Part shown: positions 25,505 through 41,020 of the stretch, piece by piece
Position numbering within the stretch: the stretch's first letter is position 1
Layout of the letters: each line of letters opens with the position of its first letter
From: Bacteroidales bacterium
GTDB taxonomy: Bacteria; Bacteroidota; Bacteroidia; Bacteroidales; UBA12077
Assembly (NCBI GenBank): GCA_030611105.1
Contig: JAUWQL010000016.1
Location: forward strand, 1 to 41,160
Reading direction: 5' to 3'
DNA length: 41,160 nucleotides
Position numbers and translations under genes: made by a program
The notes under the pieces: generated by a model
The model's database searches: none
Seen by the model: only the letters and a program-made list of their open reading frames with translations
What the model was told of the DNA's origin: nothing

Positions 25505-25804
25505 ATGAAAAATACCGAAAAAACCAAAGAGCAGTTCCTAAAAGAAATAGAAAAATTAAACAAAAAACTTAACATGACAAACACCTTAAAACTATTTGTT
25601 AAAAATCAAACTACTTACAAAATCTCTATTTCAGTTCTTTTTGGATTAGCAGGGTTTTATACAAATTTTCACACATTAATTTTTCCTTTCGGAGAATACA
25701 CTGCTGCCATATTACTTGGATTGTTGTTTCCCATGCTGATAACATTGAGTTGGGGTTGGAAATACGGTTTACTCTCTGCTTTACTGAAATTGCCGATAAA
25801 ATAA
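25505..25804 (+). pseudogene. N-terminal fragment of a 5TM-type sensor, truncated by an out-of-frame deletion
   Basis: A 99-residue ORF. A short coil (1-23) is followed by two to three membrane helices: 'TYKISISVLFGLAGFYTNFH', then 'IFPFGEYTAAILLGLLFPML' and 'ITLSWGWKYGLLSAL'. This looks like the beginning of a multi-helix sensor domain. It then ends abruptly with LKLPIK and a TAA at 25802. The following bases, read in the +2 frame, encode the end of a HAMP domain (TEIADKISKGDIE). The junction at about 25780 therefore joins a membrane-domain start to the middle of another sensor, out of frame. I read 25505-26466 as a deletion product of one or two sensor genes. Whether the fragment is translated stably is unknown. 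Confidence 0.55.
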
Positions 25805-26466
25805 GCAAAGGTGATATTGAACAAAAGATTGATATAAATTCAAAGGATGAAGTCGGGCAGTTGGCAAAATCATTCAGTATGATGCTTACAAACCTTAGTC
25901 AGGCTATTTATGATCGCGACCAGAGTATTGACAGCTTCAGACAGGTAGAAAAAGCACTTCTGTTAGAGCGCAATAACTTCAGGAATATTTTAGAATCAAT
26001 GGAAGATGGCATTTATATCGTTAACCAACAATATGATATCCAATATGTGAATCCGGTGCTTAAAAAAGATTTCGGTATATATGCTGACAGAAAGTGTTAT
26101 GAATATTTCCATGATCGAACAAAAGTTTGTCCCTGGTGCAAGAGCAACGATGTTTTTAAGGGAAAAACCGTGCGTTGGGAATGGTATTCATTCAAGAACC
26201 AGAAGACGTACGACTTGATTGATACCCCGTTGAAGAATTCTGACGGCAGCATTTCAAAGCTTGAAATGTTCCGCGACATCACCGAATACAAGCAGGCAGA
26301 AGAAGAACTTACAAAATATCGCAAACATCTCGAAGAACTGGTTAAAGAACGTACAAAAGAACTCGAAGAAAAAAACAAAGAATTGGAACGCTTTAATAAA
26401 TTATTTGTAGGGCGGGAATTTAGAATAAAAGAACTCAAGGATAAGATTAAAAAGTTGGAGAAATAG
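25750..26466 (+). pseudogene. HAMP-PAS protein remnant with the shared coiled-coil/FVGREF tail
   Basis: The 238-residue frame opens with an ATG inside the upstream ORF, and its first ~12 residues (MGLEIRFTLCFT) are out-of-frame translation of the membrane segment. True homology begins at 'EIADKISKGDIEQKIDINSK', a HAMP second helix (about 13-50). A PAS domain follows (about 78-178) with 'GIYIVNQQYDIQYVNPVLKK', a Cys pair 'CPWCKS' (~127) and the PAC end 'EMFRDITEYKQAEEEL'. The end is the coil 'HLEELVKERTKELEEKNKEL' and the tail 'LFVGREFRIKELKDKIKKLE' (218-237). There is no histidine kinase domain. No normal membrane anchor remains, because the upstream part was deleted. It could be expressed as a soluble PAS protein if internal initiation occurs. 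Confidence 0.55.
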
Positions 26467-26573: not shown

Positions 26574-28013
26574 ATGAAGAAATTTACACTCGTTCTACTA
26601 TTATTTTTTAATCTAAACTTTTTATTCGCTAATGATGTGAAAATTGATAGCCTTAAAATCAGATTAGAAAATGTAACCGGTAAAGAGAAGATAGATATTT
26701 TGAACGAATTAGCAGGGTACTATTGGGAATTGTCACCCAATGATAGAATTGCATTTGCTGAGCAGATGATTGATTTATCTGAAAAAATTCATGATCAAAA
26801 ATCCATAGCTGATGCTTATAATCATCTTGGTGTTGCCTACAATAATTTGGGCGATAGTCAAAAATCTATGGATTATTTCCTGAAAGCTCTAAATATCATG
26901 GAAGAGATAAATGACAAAAACGGAATAGCCAACTCTTATCTTAATATTGGACAGGCAAATTTCTATTTGGACAATTTTGATAAAGCGCTGGAATATTTTC
27001 AAAAAAATCTAAACTTGAGATATCAAATTGGTGATAAAATATATGTCTCCAAAGCATTGAATACAATCGGGAATGTAATGAGTAAAACAGCAAAATATGA
27101 TAAAGCATTAGAATACTATTCCAGGGCTTTGGAAATCAGCAATGAAATCAATGACAAAATGGGTATTTCCCAATTATATAATAATATCGGTAATGTATAT
27201 CTGGCAACCGGAGAACAGGAGAAAGTTTTGAAATACAGGTTCAAATCATTGCAAATTGTTCGTGAATTGAACAATAAATGGGAAACAGCCCTTACAACTT
27301 ATAATATTGCAGAATATTATTTACTAAACAAAGAACCTGATAAAGCTTATCCGTATATTCTTGAATCTAAAGATTTAGCAGAAGAATTAGATAATAAAGG
27401 GCTGTTTAATGATAATATTTTCTTTTTGTCATTATATTACGAATTAAAAGGAGATTATCAAAAGTCACTAAAATACCAGAAAGACTATGCAAAAATAACG
27501 AAAGAGCAGTTCTCAGAAGAACTAAGCGAAAATATAGCTGAAATGCAAATAAAGTTTGAAACCGAGAAAAAGGAAAAAGAAAATGAGATTTATAAGCTAC
27601 AAATCGAAAAAAATAAATTACAAAAAACCCGTTTGTATTTTGGATTGATTATTTTCTTAATTTTATTAGGTTTTTTGTATTATCGTTATTTGTTAAAAAG
27701 TAAAATCAATAAACTATTAATGATTGATATAGAAGAGCGAAAGAAAATTGAAAGTCAGTTGGAATCTAGAGTAAAAAAAAGAACCATGGAACTTTATGAA
27801 AATAACAGGGAACTTCAAAAAGAAATCACAGAGCGCAAAAAAGCAGAAGAAGAACTTAAAAAACATCGCGAACACTTAGAAGAACTCGTTAAGGAACGAA
27901 CAAAAGAACTCGAAGATAAAAACGAAGAACTTGAACGATTGAATAAGCTCTTTGTAGGTAGAGAGTTCAGAATTAATGAACTTAGGAATGAAATAAAGGA
28001 ACTAAAAAAATGA
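26574..28013 (+). CDS. Membrane-anchored TPR protein with cytoplasmic coiled coil and FVGREF tail
   Basis: A 479-residue protein. A signal peptide (1-19) leads into a periplasmic domain of about six tetratricopeptide repeats (about 75-330), with copies such as 'AYNHLGVAYNNLGDSQKSMD' and 'ALNTIGNVMSKTAKYDKALE'. One membrane helix lies at about 354-372. The cytoplasmic part (375-479) is coiled coil with 'EITERKKAEEELKKHREHLE' and ends in the tail 'LFVGREFRINELRNEIKELK' (459-478). In Bacteroidota this TPR-TM layout normally continues into a histidine kinase or a LuxR-type HTH domain; here neither is present. Its TGA overlaps the ATG of the sigma-54-like/GIY-YIG gene (28010-28013), so the two are translationally coupled. 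I infer that the tail replaces the kinase as output interface. Confidence 0.88.
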   Translation: MKKFTLVLLLFFNLNFLFANDVKIDSLKIRLENVTGKEKIDILNELAGYYWELSPNDRIAFAEQMIDLSEKIHDQKSIADAYNHLGVAYNNLGDSQKSMDYFLKALNIMEEINDKNGIANSYLNIGQANFYLDNFDKALEYFQKNLNLRYQIGDKIYVSKALNTIGNVMSKTAKYDKALEYYSRALEISNEINDKMGISQLYNNIGNVYLATGEQEKVLKYRFKSLQIVRELNNKWETALTTYNIAEYYLLNKEPDKAYPYILESKDLAEELDNKGLFNDNIFFLSLYYELKGDYQKSLKYQKDYAKITKEQFSEELSENIAEMQIKFETEKKEKENEIYKLQIEKNKLQKTRLYFGLIIFLILLGFLYYRYLLKSKINKLLMIDIEERKKIESQLESRVKKRTMELYENNRELQKEITERKKAEEELKKHREHLEELVKERTKELEDKNEELERLNKLFVGREFRINELRNEIKELKK

Positions 28014-29212
28014 TGAAAAAAGAACATCAGAACGAACTTGTTGGCAAAATAATTCTGGCGAATATTCTTGAATGTCAAATGCCAAAATTTCTAAAGTACA
28101 TTCAGGCGGTGGAAAAACAGCCCATTTATAAAAAACTAATTCATATAGGAGTTGTAGTTCGGAAACCATTTTCGGCTGGTAATTTTAAATCTGCTGATAA
28201 CGTGATTGCTAAAATTATAAAAGATACAAACCCTGATTTTTCTATTCAATATGCCAGAGAGGAGTTTTCAGTGGAGTATTTAGTTAACAGCGAAAAAATA
28301 TTAAAAGTGGCAAAACTACCGGAAGAGCAAAAGAGAAATATTAGCAATCTGGTACATAAATTAAGGCGTATAAGTACCAGGAACCGGACAATGCATGAAG
28401 TACTGAAAGGAATAATAGAGTATCAGCGTGATTACTTTGAATCGGATAATGAAAATGAAATGGACTTTAAATTAAAGCCTATGCAATTGAAAATACTGGC
28501 AAAGCACATCTCTGATAACGGTTTTTCAATAGACGAGAGCAGAATATCACGTATTTATAGAGATATATCTATTATTAACCATATAGAAAAAACAATAACT
28601 TTAAAAGATTTTTTTTCAACAAAGAGAGATATTGTGAAAAAACACATAAAAGCTATTACCAACAAGGAAAAAGAGGAAGTTCGTAATGATTTGATTAAAG
28701 AGCCATATACTGATGAAGAGTTGCAACGTAAGTTAAAAGAAGAATACAACTTAACGGTTTCAAGAAGGGAAATAGGGTACTGTAGATATGATATGGGAAT
28801 ACTGCCATATTCCAAAAGGATAAATGGCTATGGATATCCTCCTTTATCAGTGAATTTTTCCGCTATTTATCCTTTTACGGCTTCATCGGTGAAAAAAAAC
28901 GCGCCTGTGCAACCGGGAGTATATGAACTTCGTCTTGACAGAAAAGCGATAGATTATCCCAGTGGGTATCATCAGGCATTTTATATCGGCAGTGCCAAAA
29001 ATCTGAGAAAAAGGTTGATTGACCACATCGGTTCAAATGGTAAAAATGGAGGTATAAAGGAATACATAAAAAAAGAAAAGTGTGTTTTCAGGTACGTTCA
29101 GCTTACAAAACAATGGGGAATGGAAGAGAGAAATCTTTATAAGCTCTTTATTAAAGCTTTTGGTGATTCTCCTGTATGTAACTCTGTTAGTCCCAAAACC
29201 AGTGGAGGATAA
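28010..29212 (+). CDS. Sigma-54 (RpoN)-like protein fused to a GIY-YIG nuclease domain
   Basis: A 400-residue cytoplasmic protein of unusual architecture. Residues ~120-265 align by eye with the C-terminal half of sigma-54. 'RNRTMHEVLKGIIEYQRDYF' (124-143) corresponds to R-x-x-T-L-x-x-x-x-x-x-I-x-x-x-Q-R-x-F-F. 'FSIDESRISRIYRD' (172-185) corresponds to the L-H-E-S-T-I-S-R helix, and 'ITLKDFFSTK' (196-205) to the F-E-L-K-x-F-F-S segment. 'YTDEELQRKLKEEYNLTVSR' (233-252) leads into the RpoN box, which here reads SRREIGYCRYDMGI instead of ARRTVAKYREALGI. The Gln-rich activator-contact region I and most of the core-binding part are missing. Residues ~302-395 are a GIY-YIG domain: GVY (303-305), YIG (325-327), catalytic-type Arg in 'NLRKRL' (331-336), Glu372 or Glu373, and 'SPVCN' before the end. 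It overlaps the TPR gene by 4 bp. I know of no described protein with this combination. Confidence 0.82.
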   Translation: MMKKEHQNELVGKIILANILECQMPKFLKYIQAVEKQPIYKKLIHIGVVVRKPFSAGNFKSADNVIAKIIKDTNPDFSIQYAREEFSVEYLVNSEKILKVAKLPEEQKRNISNLVHKLRRISTRNRTMHEVLKGIIEYQRDYFESDNENEMDFKLKPMQLKILAKHISDNGFSIDESRISRIYRDISIINHIEKTITLKDFFSTKRDIVKKHIKAITNKEKEEVRNDLIKEPYTDEELQRKLKEEYNLTVSRREIGYCRYDMGILPYSKRINGYGYPPLSVNFSAIYPFTASSVKKNAPVQPGVYELRLDRKAIDYPSGYHQAFYIGSAKNLRKRLIDHIGSNGKNGGIKEYIKKEKCVFRYVQLTKQWGMEERNLYKLFIKAFGDSPVCNSVSPKTSGG

Positions 29213-29254: not shown

Positions 29255-30547
29255 ATGATAAAATTAAAAACTAAAAACAACAGATTACTTATATTACTTT
29301 TAACGATAATCGTATGCCTTGCACTTGCCTTTAATATTGGCTTTATCAGGGAAAAGGAAGTAGTCTATACGCATTTTTTCTATATTCCTGTTATTTTGGC
29401 TGGTATGTGGTATTACAGGAAGGCTGTATATATTGCCCTCTTTCTTGGTATGGTTCATATTTTTGTAAGCTATATATCGGTTCATAATCTTACCATAAAT
29501 AACCTGGGAAGGTTAACCATTCTTCTTGTGGTAGCATATGTCATCGGGCTTATTAGCCAGAAGCGGGCTGAGGGAGAAACGAAATTAAGGAAAGAAAAAA
29601 AAATTTCAGAAAAAATTGTGGCTACCGTCACTGATTCTTTGCTTGTCATTGATAAAAATATGAAAATAAAGAGTGCTAATCTCACTTTTTACAAAACATT
29701 TAAAATTGATTCAGAAAAAATAATAGGTACTTGCATAACCGGTTTTCTCGGTGATGAGGACGGAAGGCTTGGAACTGAACTAACAGCCCTTTTTGAAACA
29801 GACGGCATATTAGAGAATTTTGAACTGAACTATCAATCGGAAAAAACAGGGGAACGTGTGTTCAATATTATTGCAAGAGGAATAATAGTTGCAGAAGAAG
29901 AAGAAGAAGAAGAAGAACAACTGGTTGTGCTGCAAGACATCACCGAACGTAAGAAGGCAGAAGAGTCTCTTATTGCATCAAAAGACTACACAGAATCTAT
30001 CATACAGAACTTTTTGGATACCCTTATTGTGGTTGACGAGGAAGCAACAATACAGACCGTGAACCCTGCGACCTGTCATCTGTTAGGTTATACAGAAAAG
30101 GAACTTATTGGACAACCGGTAAGTATTATTTTTGCAGAAGAAGAAGAAGAAGAAGTCATTCTACTATTTCAATTTTTCCGTAATGCCAAAAAGGTAAAGG
30201 ACATTAGTAAGATAAATACTATCCGAAATCGTGAACTCACATACAGAACCAAGGATGGCAAACTTATACCTATGTCTTTCAATGCAAGTGTACTAACCGA
30301 TGAAAAAGGTAATGTTACCAATGTTGTGGCTGGTGCCAAAGATATTACAGATTTAAAGCATGCGGAGGAAGAATTAAGAAAACATCGTGACCACCTCGAA
30401 GAACTCGTAAAAGAACGCACTAACGAACTTAATGATAATATCAAAGAACTCGAAAGATTAAATAAACTCTTTGTAGGCCGCGAATTCCGAATAAAAGAAC
30501 TTAGAGATGAAATTAACGAACTAAAAAATAAAAACAGTGATAGTTAA
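29255..30547 (+). CDS. Membrane PAS-PAS protein ending in the FVGREF tail, no kinase domain
   Basis: A 430-residue protein. Four membrane helices (about 10-28, 37-53, 57-76 and 85-101) form a sensor resembling the short 4TM 'HFFYIPVILAG' domains. PAS1 (about 118-231) ends in 'LQDITERKKAEE' and PAS2 (about 246-365) ends in 'GAKDITDLKHAEEEL'. The coil 'HLEELVKERTNELNDNIKEL' and the tail 'LFVGREFRIKELRDEINELK' (405-424) complete it; there is no HisKA/HATPase. Two pure GAA runs encode Glu8 (213-220) and Glu6 (295-300) inside the two PAS domains. It has a perfect Shine-Dalgarno sequence and lies 42 bp behind the sigma-54-like/GIY-YIG gene, so it is likely part of the same unit. Confidence 0.87.
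   Translation: MIKLKTKNNRLLILLLTIIVCLALAFNIGFIREKEVVYTHFFYIPVILAGMWYYRKAVYIALFLGMVHIFVSYISVHNLTINNLGRLTILLVVAYVIGLISQKRAEGETKLRKEKKISEKIVATVTDSLLVIDKNMKIKSANLTFYKTFKIDSEKIIGTCITGFLGDEDGRLGTELTALFETDGILENFELNYQSEKTGERVFNIIARGIIVAEEEEEEEEQLVVLQDITERKKAEESLIASKDYTESIIQNFLDTLIVVDEEATIQTVNPATCHLLGYTEKELIGQPVSIIFAEEEEEEVILLFQFFRNAKKVKDISKINTIRNRELTYRTKDGKLIPMSFNASVLTDEKGNVTNVVAGAKDITDLKHAEEELRKHRDHLEELVKERTNELNDNIKELERLNKLFVGREFRIKELRDEINELKNKNSDS
29894..29917 (+). repeat. GAA trinucleotide repeat (8 units) in the PAS1 coding region
   Basis: Eight uninterrupted GAA codons encode Glu8. Slippage here would change length without shifting the frame unless the change is not a multiple of three. Confidence 0.9.
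30137..30154 (+). repeat. GAA trinucleotide repeat (6 units) in the PAS2 coding region
   Basis: Six uninterrupted GAA codons encode Glu6, at the equivalent place of the second PAS domain. Like the first repeat, it is preceded by GCA. Confidence 0.88.
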
Positions 30548-30570: not shown

Positions 30571-30771
30571 ATGAGCACTTTACAAGATAAAAGTAAAAAC
30601 GAACTAATTGAAGAAATCGAAAGTCTTAAAAAAGATGTTAGAGATCTTGAAAAAAACAAAGAATTGGAACAAATAAATGATCTGTTTGTTGGTCGAGAAT
30701 TCCGGATTAAAGAATTAAAAGATAAAGTGAAAGAACTGGAAAAAGGAAAAAATGAGAAAGGGAAAAACTGA
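30571..30771 (+). CDS. Free-standing coiled-coil/FVGREF tail protein
   Basis: A 66-residue protein consisting of little more than the tail shared by its neighbours. An N-terminal coil 'KNELIEEIESLKKDVRDLEK' (9-28) leads into 'LFVGREFRIKELKDKVKELE' (38-57), followed by a Lys/Asn-rich end. It has no sensor, membrane or enzyme domain. It lies 23 bp downstream of the membrane PAS gene and 62 bp upstream of the histidine kinase gene, in frame with its own ATG. It could be a remnant of a larger PAS protein. But the tail is well conserved and the frame intact, which argues for a functional small partner that forms mixed coiled coils with the tail-bearing sensors. Function is unknown. Confidence 0.65.
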   Translation: MSTLQDKSKNELIEEIESLKKDVRDLEKNKELEQINDLFVGREFRIKELKDKVKELEKGKNEKGKN

Positions 30772-33014: not shown

Positions 33015-34013
33015 AAATTAAAAATGAATCGGTAAATTTGTTTTTGTGGCAAAAAAATAAATCATGACTAAAACAAAATTAAATGTAAATGATATTGAAA
33101 TAGTTCTTTACAAGCAAAATGAGGAAGAATATATTTCAATTACAGATATGGCAAGATTCCGAGATTCTGCAAGAACAAACTATATAATTCAGAACTGGAT
33201 GAGAACACGAAGTACTATTGAATTTATAGGACTTTGGGAACAATTGCATAATCCAAATTTTAAAAGCATCGAATTCGATGCCTTTAGAAATGAATCAGGG
33301 TCAAATAGCTTCACATTAACATCAAAAAAATGGATTGAATCCACAGATGCAATTGGAATAATCTCAAAATCTGGCAGATATGGAGGGACATACGCTCACA
33401 AAGATATTGCTTTTGAATTTGCCTCTTGGTTAAGTCCAACGTTTAAACTCTACTTAATAACAGAATATCAGAGGTTAAAAGAAGTTGAAACAAATCAATA
33501 CAATTTAGAGTGGAACGTAAAGCGAATTTTGAGTAAAACCAATTATTTGATTCACACCGATGCTGTAAAAAATTACATTTTGCCTGAAATAAATTATGAA
33601 AAGGGTATGGAATGGATTACTTATGCAGAAGAAGCAGATTTGTTAAATGTGGCTCTTTTTAACTGTACAGCAAAAGACTGGAGAGAAGCAAATCCTGAGT
33701 TGGCAGAAAAAATAATGAATATTAGGGATATTGCAAGTATAAATGAACTTGCGATTCTTTCTAACCTTGAGACTATAAATGCTGTGATGATAAAGGAGAA
33801 AATTGAAAAGAAGGACAGATTTTTAAAACTAAGAGAAATAGCAAAATATCAGCAAACAGTTTTAAATGAAAAAGACTTTATGAAATCTCTAAAGAAACTA
33901 AATGAGCGAGTATATATTAACGAAAAGAAAAAACTTGATTAAAAATAACGAAACGCAAACATGGCTTCAAATTTAAGCGGAATTGCATTGCGTTTTGAAA
34001 ATTGAAAGTGAAT
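33011..34013. repeat. Imperfect 19-bp direct repeats flanking the KilA-N gene
   Basis: TTGAAAATTAAAAATGAAT (33011-33029) recurs as TTGAAAATTGAAAGTGAAT (33995-34013), 17 of 19 matching. The pair brackets the KilA-N gene exactly between a kinase and its probable receiver. It is A/T-rich, so chance similarity is possible. Confidence 0.4.
33064..33942 (+). CDS. KilA-N domain-containing protein
   Basis: A 292-residue cytoplasmic protein with an N-terminal KilA-N (APSES-related) DNA-binding domain, about residues 15-135. Recognisable blocks are 'YISITDMARFRD', 'IIQNWMRTRSTIEFIGLWEQ', 'GIISKSGRYGGTYAHKDIAF' and 'EFASWLSPTFKLYLITEYQR'. The C-terminal half is helical, with an ORF6N-associated 'NVALFNCTAKDWREANPELA' type segment. 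KilA-N proteins are spread by phages and mobile elements. In Bacteroidota this compact form often stands alone in variable loci. Its position between the histidine kinase and the Rcp1-like receiver, with near-identical flanking repeats, suggests it was inserted. The biological role is unknown, although DNA binding is likely. Confidence 0.9.
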   Translation: MTKTKLNVNDIEIVLYKQNEEEYISITDMARFRDSARTNYIIQNWMRTRSTIEFIGLWEQLHNPNFKSIEFDAFRNESGSNSFTLTSKKWIESTDAIGIISKSGRYGGTYAHKDIAFEFASWLSPTFKLYLITEYQRLKEVETNQYNLEWNVKRILSKTNYLIHTDAVKNYILPEINYEKGMEWITYAEEADLLNVALFNCTAKDWREANPELAEKIMNIRDIASINELAILSNLETINAVMIKEKIEKKDRFLKLREIAKYQQTVLNEKDFMKSLKKLNERVYINEKKKLD

Positions 34014-40489: not shown

Positions 40490-41020
40490 ATGTCAGAAAA
40501 ACGAAAAGCAAATACAGACTCTGCGTATTATCTTACATTCACAGTTGTAGGATGGATAGATATTTTCACAAGAAGCAAATATTGTGATATTGTATTGAAA
40601 AGTTTGGAGTATTGTAGAAAAGAAAAAGGATTAGAGATTTTTGCTTTTGTAATAATGCCAAGCCATATTCATCTTATAGCTCGACATAATGAAGAAAAGC
40701 TTAACGAAATAATTAGGGATTTTAAAAGTTTTACTGCAAAAGCAATTATACGAACAATACAAGAAGAGCCTGGTGAAAGCAGAAAAGAATGGTTATTACA
40801 TATGTTTAAGTATTTTGCTAAATACAAAAATCAGAATAAAAAATATCAATTTTGGCAAAAGACAAATCATCCAACAGAACTGTTCACAAATGACGTAATT
40901 GATCAAAAAATAAATTATTTGCATAACAATCCAGCTGTTGCAGGTATTGTTTCTAATGTTGAATCATATGTTTATAGTAGTGCAAATATGTTTTGTGATT
41001 TTGAGGTAAATGAGATGTGA
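40490..41020 (+). CDS. REP-associated tyrosine transposase (RAYT, Y1/IS200-like)
   Basis: A 176-residue single-domain HUH transposase. 'SAYYLTFTVVGWIDIFTRSK' (11-30) is the usual start. The HUH metal motif is His59-Ile-His61 in 'VIMPSHIHLIARH'. The catalytic tyrosine is Tyr143 in 'KINYLHNNPAVAGIV', followed by the conserved end 'ESYVYSSANMF'. RAYTs move or maintain REP palindromes rather than carry full terminal repeats. This one is bracketed by two REP copies (40411-40460 and 41066-41110) plus a small hairpin (41031-41046), the typical arrangement. The gene looks intact. Confidence 0.95.
   Translation: MSEKRKANTDSAYYLTFTVVGWIDIFTRSKYCDIVLKSLEYCRKEKGLEIFAFVIMPSHIHLIARHNEEKLNEIIRDFKSFTAKAIIRTIQEEPGESRKEWLLHMFKYFAKYKNQNKKYQFWQKTNHPTELFTNDVIDQKINYLHNNPAVAGIVSNVESYVYSSANMFCDFEVNEM

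Follow-up and report, generated by a model that had tools for sequence, protein, structure and literature searches.

A putative GIY-YIG nuclease with a sigma-54-type DNA-binding domain is linked to promoter-like sites and GAA repeats in bacterial PAS sensor genes

Diversity-generating retroelements bring an enzyme gene close to a target gene that carries a dedicated cis element, and the locus described here resembles them in this respect. It lies in a 41,160-nt stretch of DNA from a Bacteroidales bacterium (GenBank assembly GCA_030611105.1, contig JAUWQL010000016.1), called the window below in its full length, where a gene for a sigma-54-like DNA-binding domain joined to a GIY-YIG nuclease domain precedes a PAS sensor gene with two GAA repeat tracts. 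Unlike diversity-generating retroelements, no reverse transcriptase appeared among the Pfam matches of the eight window proteins scanned, and the change seen here is one of repeat number. We propose, at a probability of roughly 55%, that the two genes form a two-part mobile system, made of a site-specific GIY-YIG endonuclease with a sigma-54 C-terminal domain as its head and a cis element in the PAS gene, which we define as a -24/-12-like site followed immediately by (GAA)n inside the coding sequence of the partner.

Sigma-54 (RpoN) reads promoters with the consensus TGGCAC-N5-TTGC, as given in PMC9977809, and the window protein resembles it in its Sigma54_DBD profile match, its fold, its RpoN-box arginines and its putative target. 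It differs from RpoN in size (400 aa with a GIY-YIG domain versus ~480-510 aa), in lacking a middle stretch, in having a family member in an archaeal draft genome and in the place of its putative site, next to a GAA repeat within a gene's coding sequence. Homing endonucleases of the I-TevI/Seg type likewise combine GIY-YIG with a separate DNA-reading part, spread patchily, have no evident promoter of their own and insert near or in host genes (PMC2988022). In the present family, however, the nuclease is C-terminal and carries a sigma-54 head, whereas homing members typically have NUMOD domains (PMC1564403), and the site stays intact beside the gene with its associated GAA repeat. The main text of that survey of the GIY-YIG superfamily contains the words "sigma" and "RpoN" 0 times. 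The mobE gene of Aeh1 is a mobile nuclease gene that splits a host reading frame, nrdA (PMC2988022), as seen in some of our loci, but it codes for an HNH enzyme and its host frame is a phage ribonucleotide reductase, not a sensor. An earlier, sequence-only reading of the window had known of no described protein with this architecture. Our results agree, since relatives are labelled merely "GIY-YIG nuclease family protein" and literature searches (GIY-YIG with sigma-54, RpoN or PAS; GAA or trinucleotide repeats with PAS) returned no description, although subscription papers and preprints lay outside their scope and a prior description is possible. The features on which the argument rests are the following.

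28010..29212, + strand: sigma-54-DBD/GIY-YIG nuclease gene (400 aa, ATG start)
28355..28819, + strand: Sigma54_DBD (residues 116-270; Pfam 2.7e-14; Foldseek matches to sigma-54 chains)
28760..28789, + strand: RpoN-box position SRREIGYCRY (residues 251-260)
28913..29182, + strand: GIY-YIG domain with catalytic residues present (residues 302-391; conserved residues, UvrC domain match)
29255..30547, + strand: partner gene (430 aa; PAS matches, hydrophobic N-terminus by eye; holds both GAA tracts)
29878..29893, + strand: embedded -24/-12-like site 1, AGGAATAATAGTTGCA (8/11 consensus positions)
29894..29917, + strand: (GAA)8 tract 1, coding for EEEEEEEE
30121..30136, + strand: embedded -24/-12-like site 2, AAGTATTATTTTTGCA (7/11 consensus positions)
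30137..30154, + strand: (GAA)6 tract 2, coding for EEEEEE

The sequence-only reading had proposed that the window protein joins the DNA-binding half of sigma-54 to a GIY-YIG domain, and both profiles and predicted structure confirmed this fusion. Pfam Sigma54_DBD scored 53.7 bits against a cut-off of 22.8 (E=2.7e-14), while GIY-YIG matched residues 323-369 with E=2.3e-4 and 21.9 bits, slightly below its cut-off of 22.6. The single-sequence PDB search was weak (top sigma-54 chain at E=0.11); with an AlphaFold2 model built on a 38-sequence alignment (pLDDT 90.3, pTM 0.81), Foldseek returned nine PDB chains at E<=0.001, all of them sigma-54 (top 3.0e-7), followed by the UvrC GIY-YIG domain 1yd6 (E=0.013, prob 1.00, TMt 0.68). 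The catalytic motif of the GIY-YIG superfamily consists of Tyr, Tyr, Arg, Glu and Asn, and these residues are in place, as that reading had also claimed: Y305, E306, Y325, G327, R335, E373 and N391 are kept in 43/43 aligned homologs and G303 in 42/43. Its RpoN-box assignment was borne out by the conservation of R259 (43/43) and R253 (42/43). The aligned homologs range from Bacteroidota to Pseudomonadota and include one from a Methanophagales draft genome; one is a 159-aa fragment, and duplicates (L002, L003, L026, L027, L056) and hits under 160 bits were left out.

The end of NCBIfam rpoN_sigma aligns with residues 69-270 (6.9e-16), but at 58.3 bits versus an equivalog cut-off of 277, and therefore the window protein is no ordinary RpoN, in support of the earlier claim that it probably cannot work as a normal sigma-54. 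The core-binding-domain family was absent from its Pfam matches, and an RpoN-sized match of the same genome lies on a separate contig (C185, E=1.1e-53). The companion claim that Region I is absent may hold only in part: over its initial ~45 residues the family profile shows a weak resemblance to the N-termini of three short RpoN-like proteins (11.7, 6.5 and 2.8 bits), and the region may not be wholly missing; in the best of the three, the next 68 residues have no counterpart in the nuclease family. In these three proteins (~360-370 aa; L140 2727-3842, L296 2840-3913, L297 1678-2763), the match to the family is confined to its sigma-54 part and does not extend to GIY-YIG; one of them divergently adjoins a nuclease, and it is possible that they are relatives of the nuclease's ancestor. 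As read from its sequence, the window protein is probably a DNA-cutting enzyme that uses the promoter-reading half of sigma-54.

The partner gene directly follows the nuclease gene, and the GAA tracts it holds, on which the sequence-only reading was silent, were judged the most informative feature of the locus. GCN(GAR)6 occurs twice in 3.77 Mb of sequence from the window's genome, both times in this gene. Among 59 genomes from its own genus to its own order, own genome included, such a run is present in six, and a pure GCN(GAA)6 just in the window's genome and G036, the two that code for a two-domain homolog and in both of which the tract adjoins the nuclease; the remaining four have mixed GAA/GAG runs. 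A -24/-12-like element with sigma-54 spacing is present in the adjoining sensor gene and at the loci of near homologs, where the tract-anchored positions -16 to -1 read roughly (T/A)(G/A)G-N-A-T-N5-TTGC(A/G). With placement fixed and no search for the best place, agreement with the consensus is 7 to 9 of 11 positions in 45 of the 50 sites from nuclease-bearing stretches. Inspection by eye shows TTGAA in four of the remaining five (L103, L081 and two in L068), as though the tract had absorbed TTGCA; in the last, the first L108 tract, TTGCA stands one codon further upstream. In 62 TTGCR(GAA)>=4 sites, that is, with at least four units, spacer 5 is the one at which the second G of the -24 element is most often present (60 sites; next best spacer, 39), and GG is found there in 38/62, against at most 7 at any other spacer from 0 to 15. 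A check of 55 genomes found between 0 and 4 copies of TTGCR(GAA)4 in each and at least one in 47, and the reversed control gave zero. When RpoN-box residues were compared with site variants, the matching mostly looked like clade signal. The site, together with the profile and fold matches, supports the view that the protein is a nuclease or regulator reading -24/-12-like sites and not a working sigma-54.

The motif also appears to be preserved as DNA. Peptide contexts vary (GIIVA, GIRLA, GKIFA, RIFFA, SIIFA) while the DNA motif stays constant, and the codon preceding Ala is NTT in 63/68 sites, where 20.2 were expected from the usage of the same genes. In 22 open reading frames (ORFs) with GC3 >0.6, the Leu codon is CTT in 22/22, and T stands at -16 in 21 (2.7 expected). 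This test left out short ORFs (<450 nt), repeats of the same upstream sequence, sites containing N and those with no Ala in front. The loci are related, so that the counts for motif, codons and linkage are less than independent, but the codon choice points to selection acting on the DNA.

Linkage of nuclease and site was followed by scanning genome contigs for (GAA)6 with GAYATNACNRA, a string which favours the end of a PAS domain, 12-42 bases downstream, and 83 stretches were obtained. Where TTGCR stands directly 5' of the tract (59 loci), the nuclease lies in the stretch in 39, elsewhere in the genome in 12 and was not found in 8; with TTGAA, a class created after the exceptions had been seen, it is in the stretch in 3 of 4 loci and was not found in 1. 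Among 18 loci with no motif it is in the stretch in 1, in the genome in 1 and was not found in 16, and in two masked or contig-edge loci it is present in both (stretch 1, genome 1). By the strict count, the nuclease accompanies 51/59 TTGCR loci versus 7/24 of all others. The genome search covered 32 of the 39 loci with no nuclease in the stretch (29 genomes); the other seven (L074, L075, L115, L132, L137, L139, L143) are all among the 16 motif-less not-found loci. Several of the cases counted as elsewhere in the genome share that genome with another counted locus (G061, G068), and in G061, G069, G085 and G087 the match is incomplete or divided in two. A near-identical pattern run on viral contigs gave 28 stretches, 27 with neither motif nor nuclease and 1 with both. 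Starting instead from the nuclease, with homologs that a protein search gave in records or genomes not picked for a tract, motif plus pure (GAA)6-8 is present in 7/7 intact near kin with sufficient downstream DNA: L004 (G036), L023, L024, L242 (G196), L259 (G895) and both L260 and L261 (G925). A truncated copy in G826 has no tract, and the G906 copy stops at the contig edge.

The repeat is the fastest-changing part of the copies compared. Two metagenome-assembled genomes (MAGs) of one naming series (L077 and L093) share 6,918 bp with no substitution but have 14 versus 13 GAA units, and over 8 kb just one substitution and one 4-bp indel, apart from five GAA units (13 versus 8), separate L093 from the copy on a Diaphorobacter plasmid (L023). 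Unit number thus varies among near-identical copies (8, 13, 14), as in phase-variable repeat loci, and the triplet unit preserves the reading frame. Among Gallionella-type copies that are 95-100% identical in the query stretch, the unit number ranges from 6 to 10. On the Diaphorobacter plasmid, which is conjugative, 69-bp repeats (L023 6793-6861 and 11971-12039; ~94% alike, judged from L077 alignments) flank the unit of nuclease and EAL gene, with a Tn3-family transposase nearby.

In the two-part system, the sigma-54 half would dock on the embedded site as RpoN does on promoters, which would place the GIY-YIG domain so that it nicks or cuts the repeat just downstream, or DNA close to it. Repair could then alter the repeat number, making the glutamate loop of the sensor longer or shorter, and may recombine or co-convert tract-bearing segments with another copy; the unit of nuclease and partner gene would thereby vary and spread. 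This could serve homing or diversification. A more far-reaching version, which we regard as tentative, is programmed repeat editing, in which the sigma-54-guided nuclease would repeatedly nick the GAA repeat, tune a charged loop and recombine sensor modules in bacteria and archaea.

Several observations weigh against the two-part system. If the intact but distant and tract-less Arcobacter homolog is counted, 7/8 nuclease-selected members have the element, and the archaeal nuclease contig (3.6 kb) has no tract, the two sites of that genome being on another contig. Ten PAS-like loci have a GAA tract but no motif (L064, L065, L080, L094, L099, L100, L104, L110, L112, L115), and at E<=1e-40 the nuclease was not found in the genomes of nine of them, L115 being outside the search; a GAA tract, or glutamate loop, can therefore arise alone. 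Conversely, the nuclease was not found in the draft genomes of eight TTGCR loci and one TTGAA locus. The -24 half is the weaker one, with GG at -15,-14 in just 43/68 sites and AG in 18/68, and L135 has no -24 G. Long pure GAA repeats slip spontaneously, so that length variation is no proof of nuclease action. The loci are mostly draft MAGs, many related or from the same genome, and the scan was chosen on a pure (GAA)6 and a PAS-like ending.

Some of the motif-less loci (L064, L080, L094, L099, L104, L110, L112) represent another PAS-like subtype, mostly ..LRVPKKIA.. (Omnitrophota, Yanofskybacteria) with a divergent form in Scalindua, that has a pure GAA tract at a like position with neither motif nor found nuclease. 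An all-versus-all comparison of ORFs neighbouring nine motif-less tract loci (Omnitrophota, Scalindua, Yanofskybacteria, euryarchaeal) revealed no common nuclease; the shared neighbours, labelled by eye, were tract proteins, response-regulator-like ORFs and one weak ATPase-like pair.

The best-surviving alternative is that the nuclease is a selfish, free-standing homing endonuclease, whose target is the embedded site in PAS alleles that lack the enzyme; after cutting there it would be copied in together with its flanks, the GAA tract being the cut site or a scar that shields its own allele. We take this seriously, while rating it at somewhat less than even odds. Patchy spread speaks for it: at E<=1e-40, and with the centre genomes included, the nuclease is found in 1/299 genomes of G086's family, 13/150 of G092's family and 5/149 of G109's phylum. 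In the window's phylum, 73/395 genomes match at 1e-20, and whole-profile matches come from just 2/395, the window's own genome (G000) and G196, the other listed matches being mainly to the sigma-54 part in RpoN-sized frames. A further member, in G036, belongs to the same order as the window, on a contig (L114) titled Bacteroidetes MAG. A tblastn search of plasmid records gave three relatives, from Diaphorobacter, Sulfuricystis and Arcobacter, all titled "GIY-YIG nuclease family protein" and each near EAL, chemotaxis or two-component genes. In a Methanophagales MAG, a member that looks intact and shares 53.5% identity with the window protein is flanked by nucleotidyltransferase/HEPN-like and AbrB/PIN-like genes (our ORF reading). 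In the tree, from which proteins of 280 aa or less were left out, the window protein groups with this archaeon, two Chloroflexota and one Nitrospirota (support 100/99), so that Bacteroidota, Chloroflexota, Nitrospirota and an archaeon are intermixed, although draft-genome binning errors are possible for single cases. The truncated copy L262 and the copies read in two frames, L117, L119, L133 and L141, also fit homing. The Arcobacter plasmid member (L025 7428-8495) is very divergent, has no GAA tract in 16 kb and may read another site. A scan of genome contigs for close relatives with the single window protein found none, phage records gave no nuclease match, PADLOC had no family for the nuclease at E<=0.01, and PHROGs returned a single weak family of unknown function (0.015).

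The way in which the gene sits in its hosts, which takes two layouts, fits homing as well as the two-part system. In class B, which comprises the window, the Betaproteobacteria seen and others, the partner gene is uninterrupted and follows the nuclease; the two betaproteobacterial partner proteins scanned are protoglobin-PAS-GGDEF-EAL. In class A (22 rows but 21 loci, as L004 and L114 are the same locus), the nuclease stop lies ~64-100 bp upstream of the tract. Thirteen class A loci were read. In 11 of them a common sequence resembling the first half of a PAS domain closes the upstream ORF, the other two beginning too close to the contig end, and the second half begins just past the nuclease, with ATGA-type overlaps in several loci, reminiscent of mobE after nrdA in T4-like phages (PMC2988022). 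Frames that join both halves without interruption exist in L098 and L086 (both in G068, which also has the split copy L103) and in L072 (G061, also with split copy L119); the PAS identity of the split frame rests on a modest Pfam match (PAS_7, 1.2e-7, L098 residues 370-487). Class A is nearly one group in the tree, and L242 falls inside it despite its class B layout. In L109 (230-285), a hybrid PAS joins the upstream context of tract type 2 to the downstream context of type 1 exactly at the tract; it may stem from recombination or from chimeric assembly, and no argument here rests on it.

Patchy horizontal spread and insertion in or beside host genes are thus shared with homing endonucleases, but the interrupted recognition site of the intron and intein types is not, since motif and tract lie intact at least 64 bp away; free-standing types may have some other means of protection. 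In resident units the site near the nuclease gene is uninterrupted and apparently conserved as DNA, and tract-bearing relatives persist uninterrupted in the same genomes. Naive targets seem scarce as well, for the tract-less relatives of the betaproteobacterial partner that were aligned, at 36-47% identity, all (18/18) show a short loop, e.g. LAQMGEEHVV, and no site. Homing accounts for mobility and split genes, but not for an intact, seemingly selected site by the enzyme gene.

It is unlikely that the protein is primarily a transcriptional regulator, whose sigma-54 half binds the in-gene site or blocks RpoN to control the sensor operon while the nuclease is secondary. The sigma-54-like site and spacing would suit such a role, as would the position of the gene among signalling genes in the window and on the three plasmids, but simple regulation leaves the catalytic residues kept in 43 homologs unexplained, and the site is inside coding sequence, ~64 bp to 3.3 kb past the nuclease gene or, for the second tracts of L119 and L141, before it. 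In addition, in 5/16 nuclease genomes checked, all drafts (G084, G104, G099, G108, G1099; one is the Methanophagales genome), no Sigma54_DBD match other than the nuclease was found. For this reason, a motif serving the cell's own RpoN was set aside, and independence of the nuclease from sigma-54 transcription is supported, though not proven. A protein-level feature alone, in which a [FLVI]-Ala-Glu PAS loop is favoured and the nuclease merely hitch-hikes among sensor genes, would suit the ten PAS-like loci with glutamate runs but no motif or found nuclease, yet it is very improbable given the codon choice, the single DNA motif across differing peptides and the strict linkage count.

Upstream of the nuclease in the window lies one further gene of direct interest.

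26574..28013, + strand: TPR gene with a coiled-coil-like end, its stop overlapping the nuclease start

This overlap is of the ATGA type, and the two genes are possibly translationally coupled. A coiled-coil-like tail (..NKLFVGREFRIKELRDEIKELKK) with 74-77% DNA identity ends three genes around the nuclease (26272-26462, 27819-28009 and 30338-30528), and a further 96-nt copy lies outside long ORFs at 30649-30744. The HAMP/PAS protein at 25505-26466 is apparently split in two overlapping frames (25505-25804 and 25750-26466), probably by a frameshift or sequencing error. Further downstream, a KilA-N gene (33064-33942) matches the PADLOC candidate defence family PDC-S22 (1.5e-122), and the ORF at 40490-41020 looks by eye like a REP-associated (Y1-type) transposase.

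Nuclease, promoter-like signal and GAA run occur together in one archaeal draft genome as well as in many bacteria, which points to a so far undescribed mechanism by which sensor genes could be targeted and reshaped. A promoter-reading domain appears to have become the part that guides a nuclease to its target, with a promoter-like address written in the codons of signalling genes. If true, the two-part system would represent a new DNA-targeting module and an enzyme dedicated to a bacterial microsatellite, and programmed repeat editing, should it occur, would be sensor diversification without reverse transcriptase. Such a system would also give these organisms a route for splitting, varying and moving sensor genes between phyla and domains.

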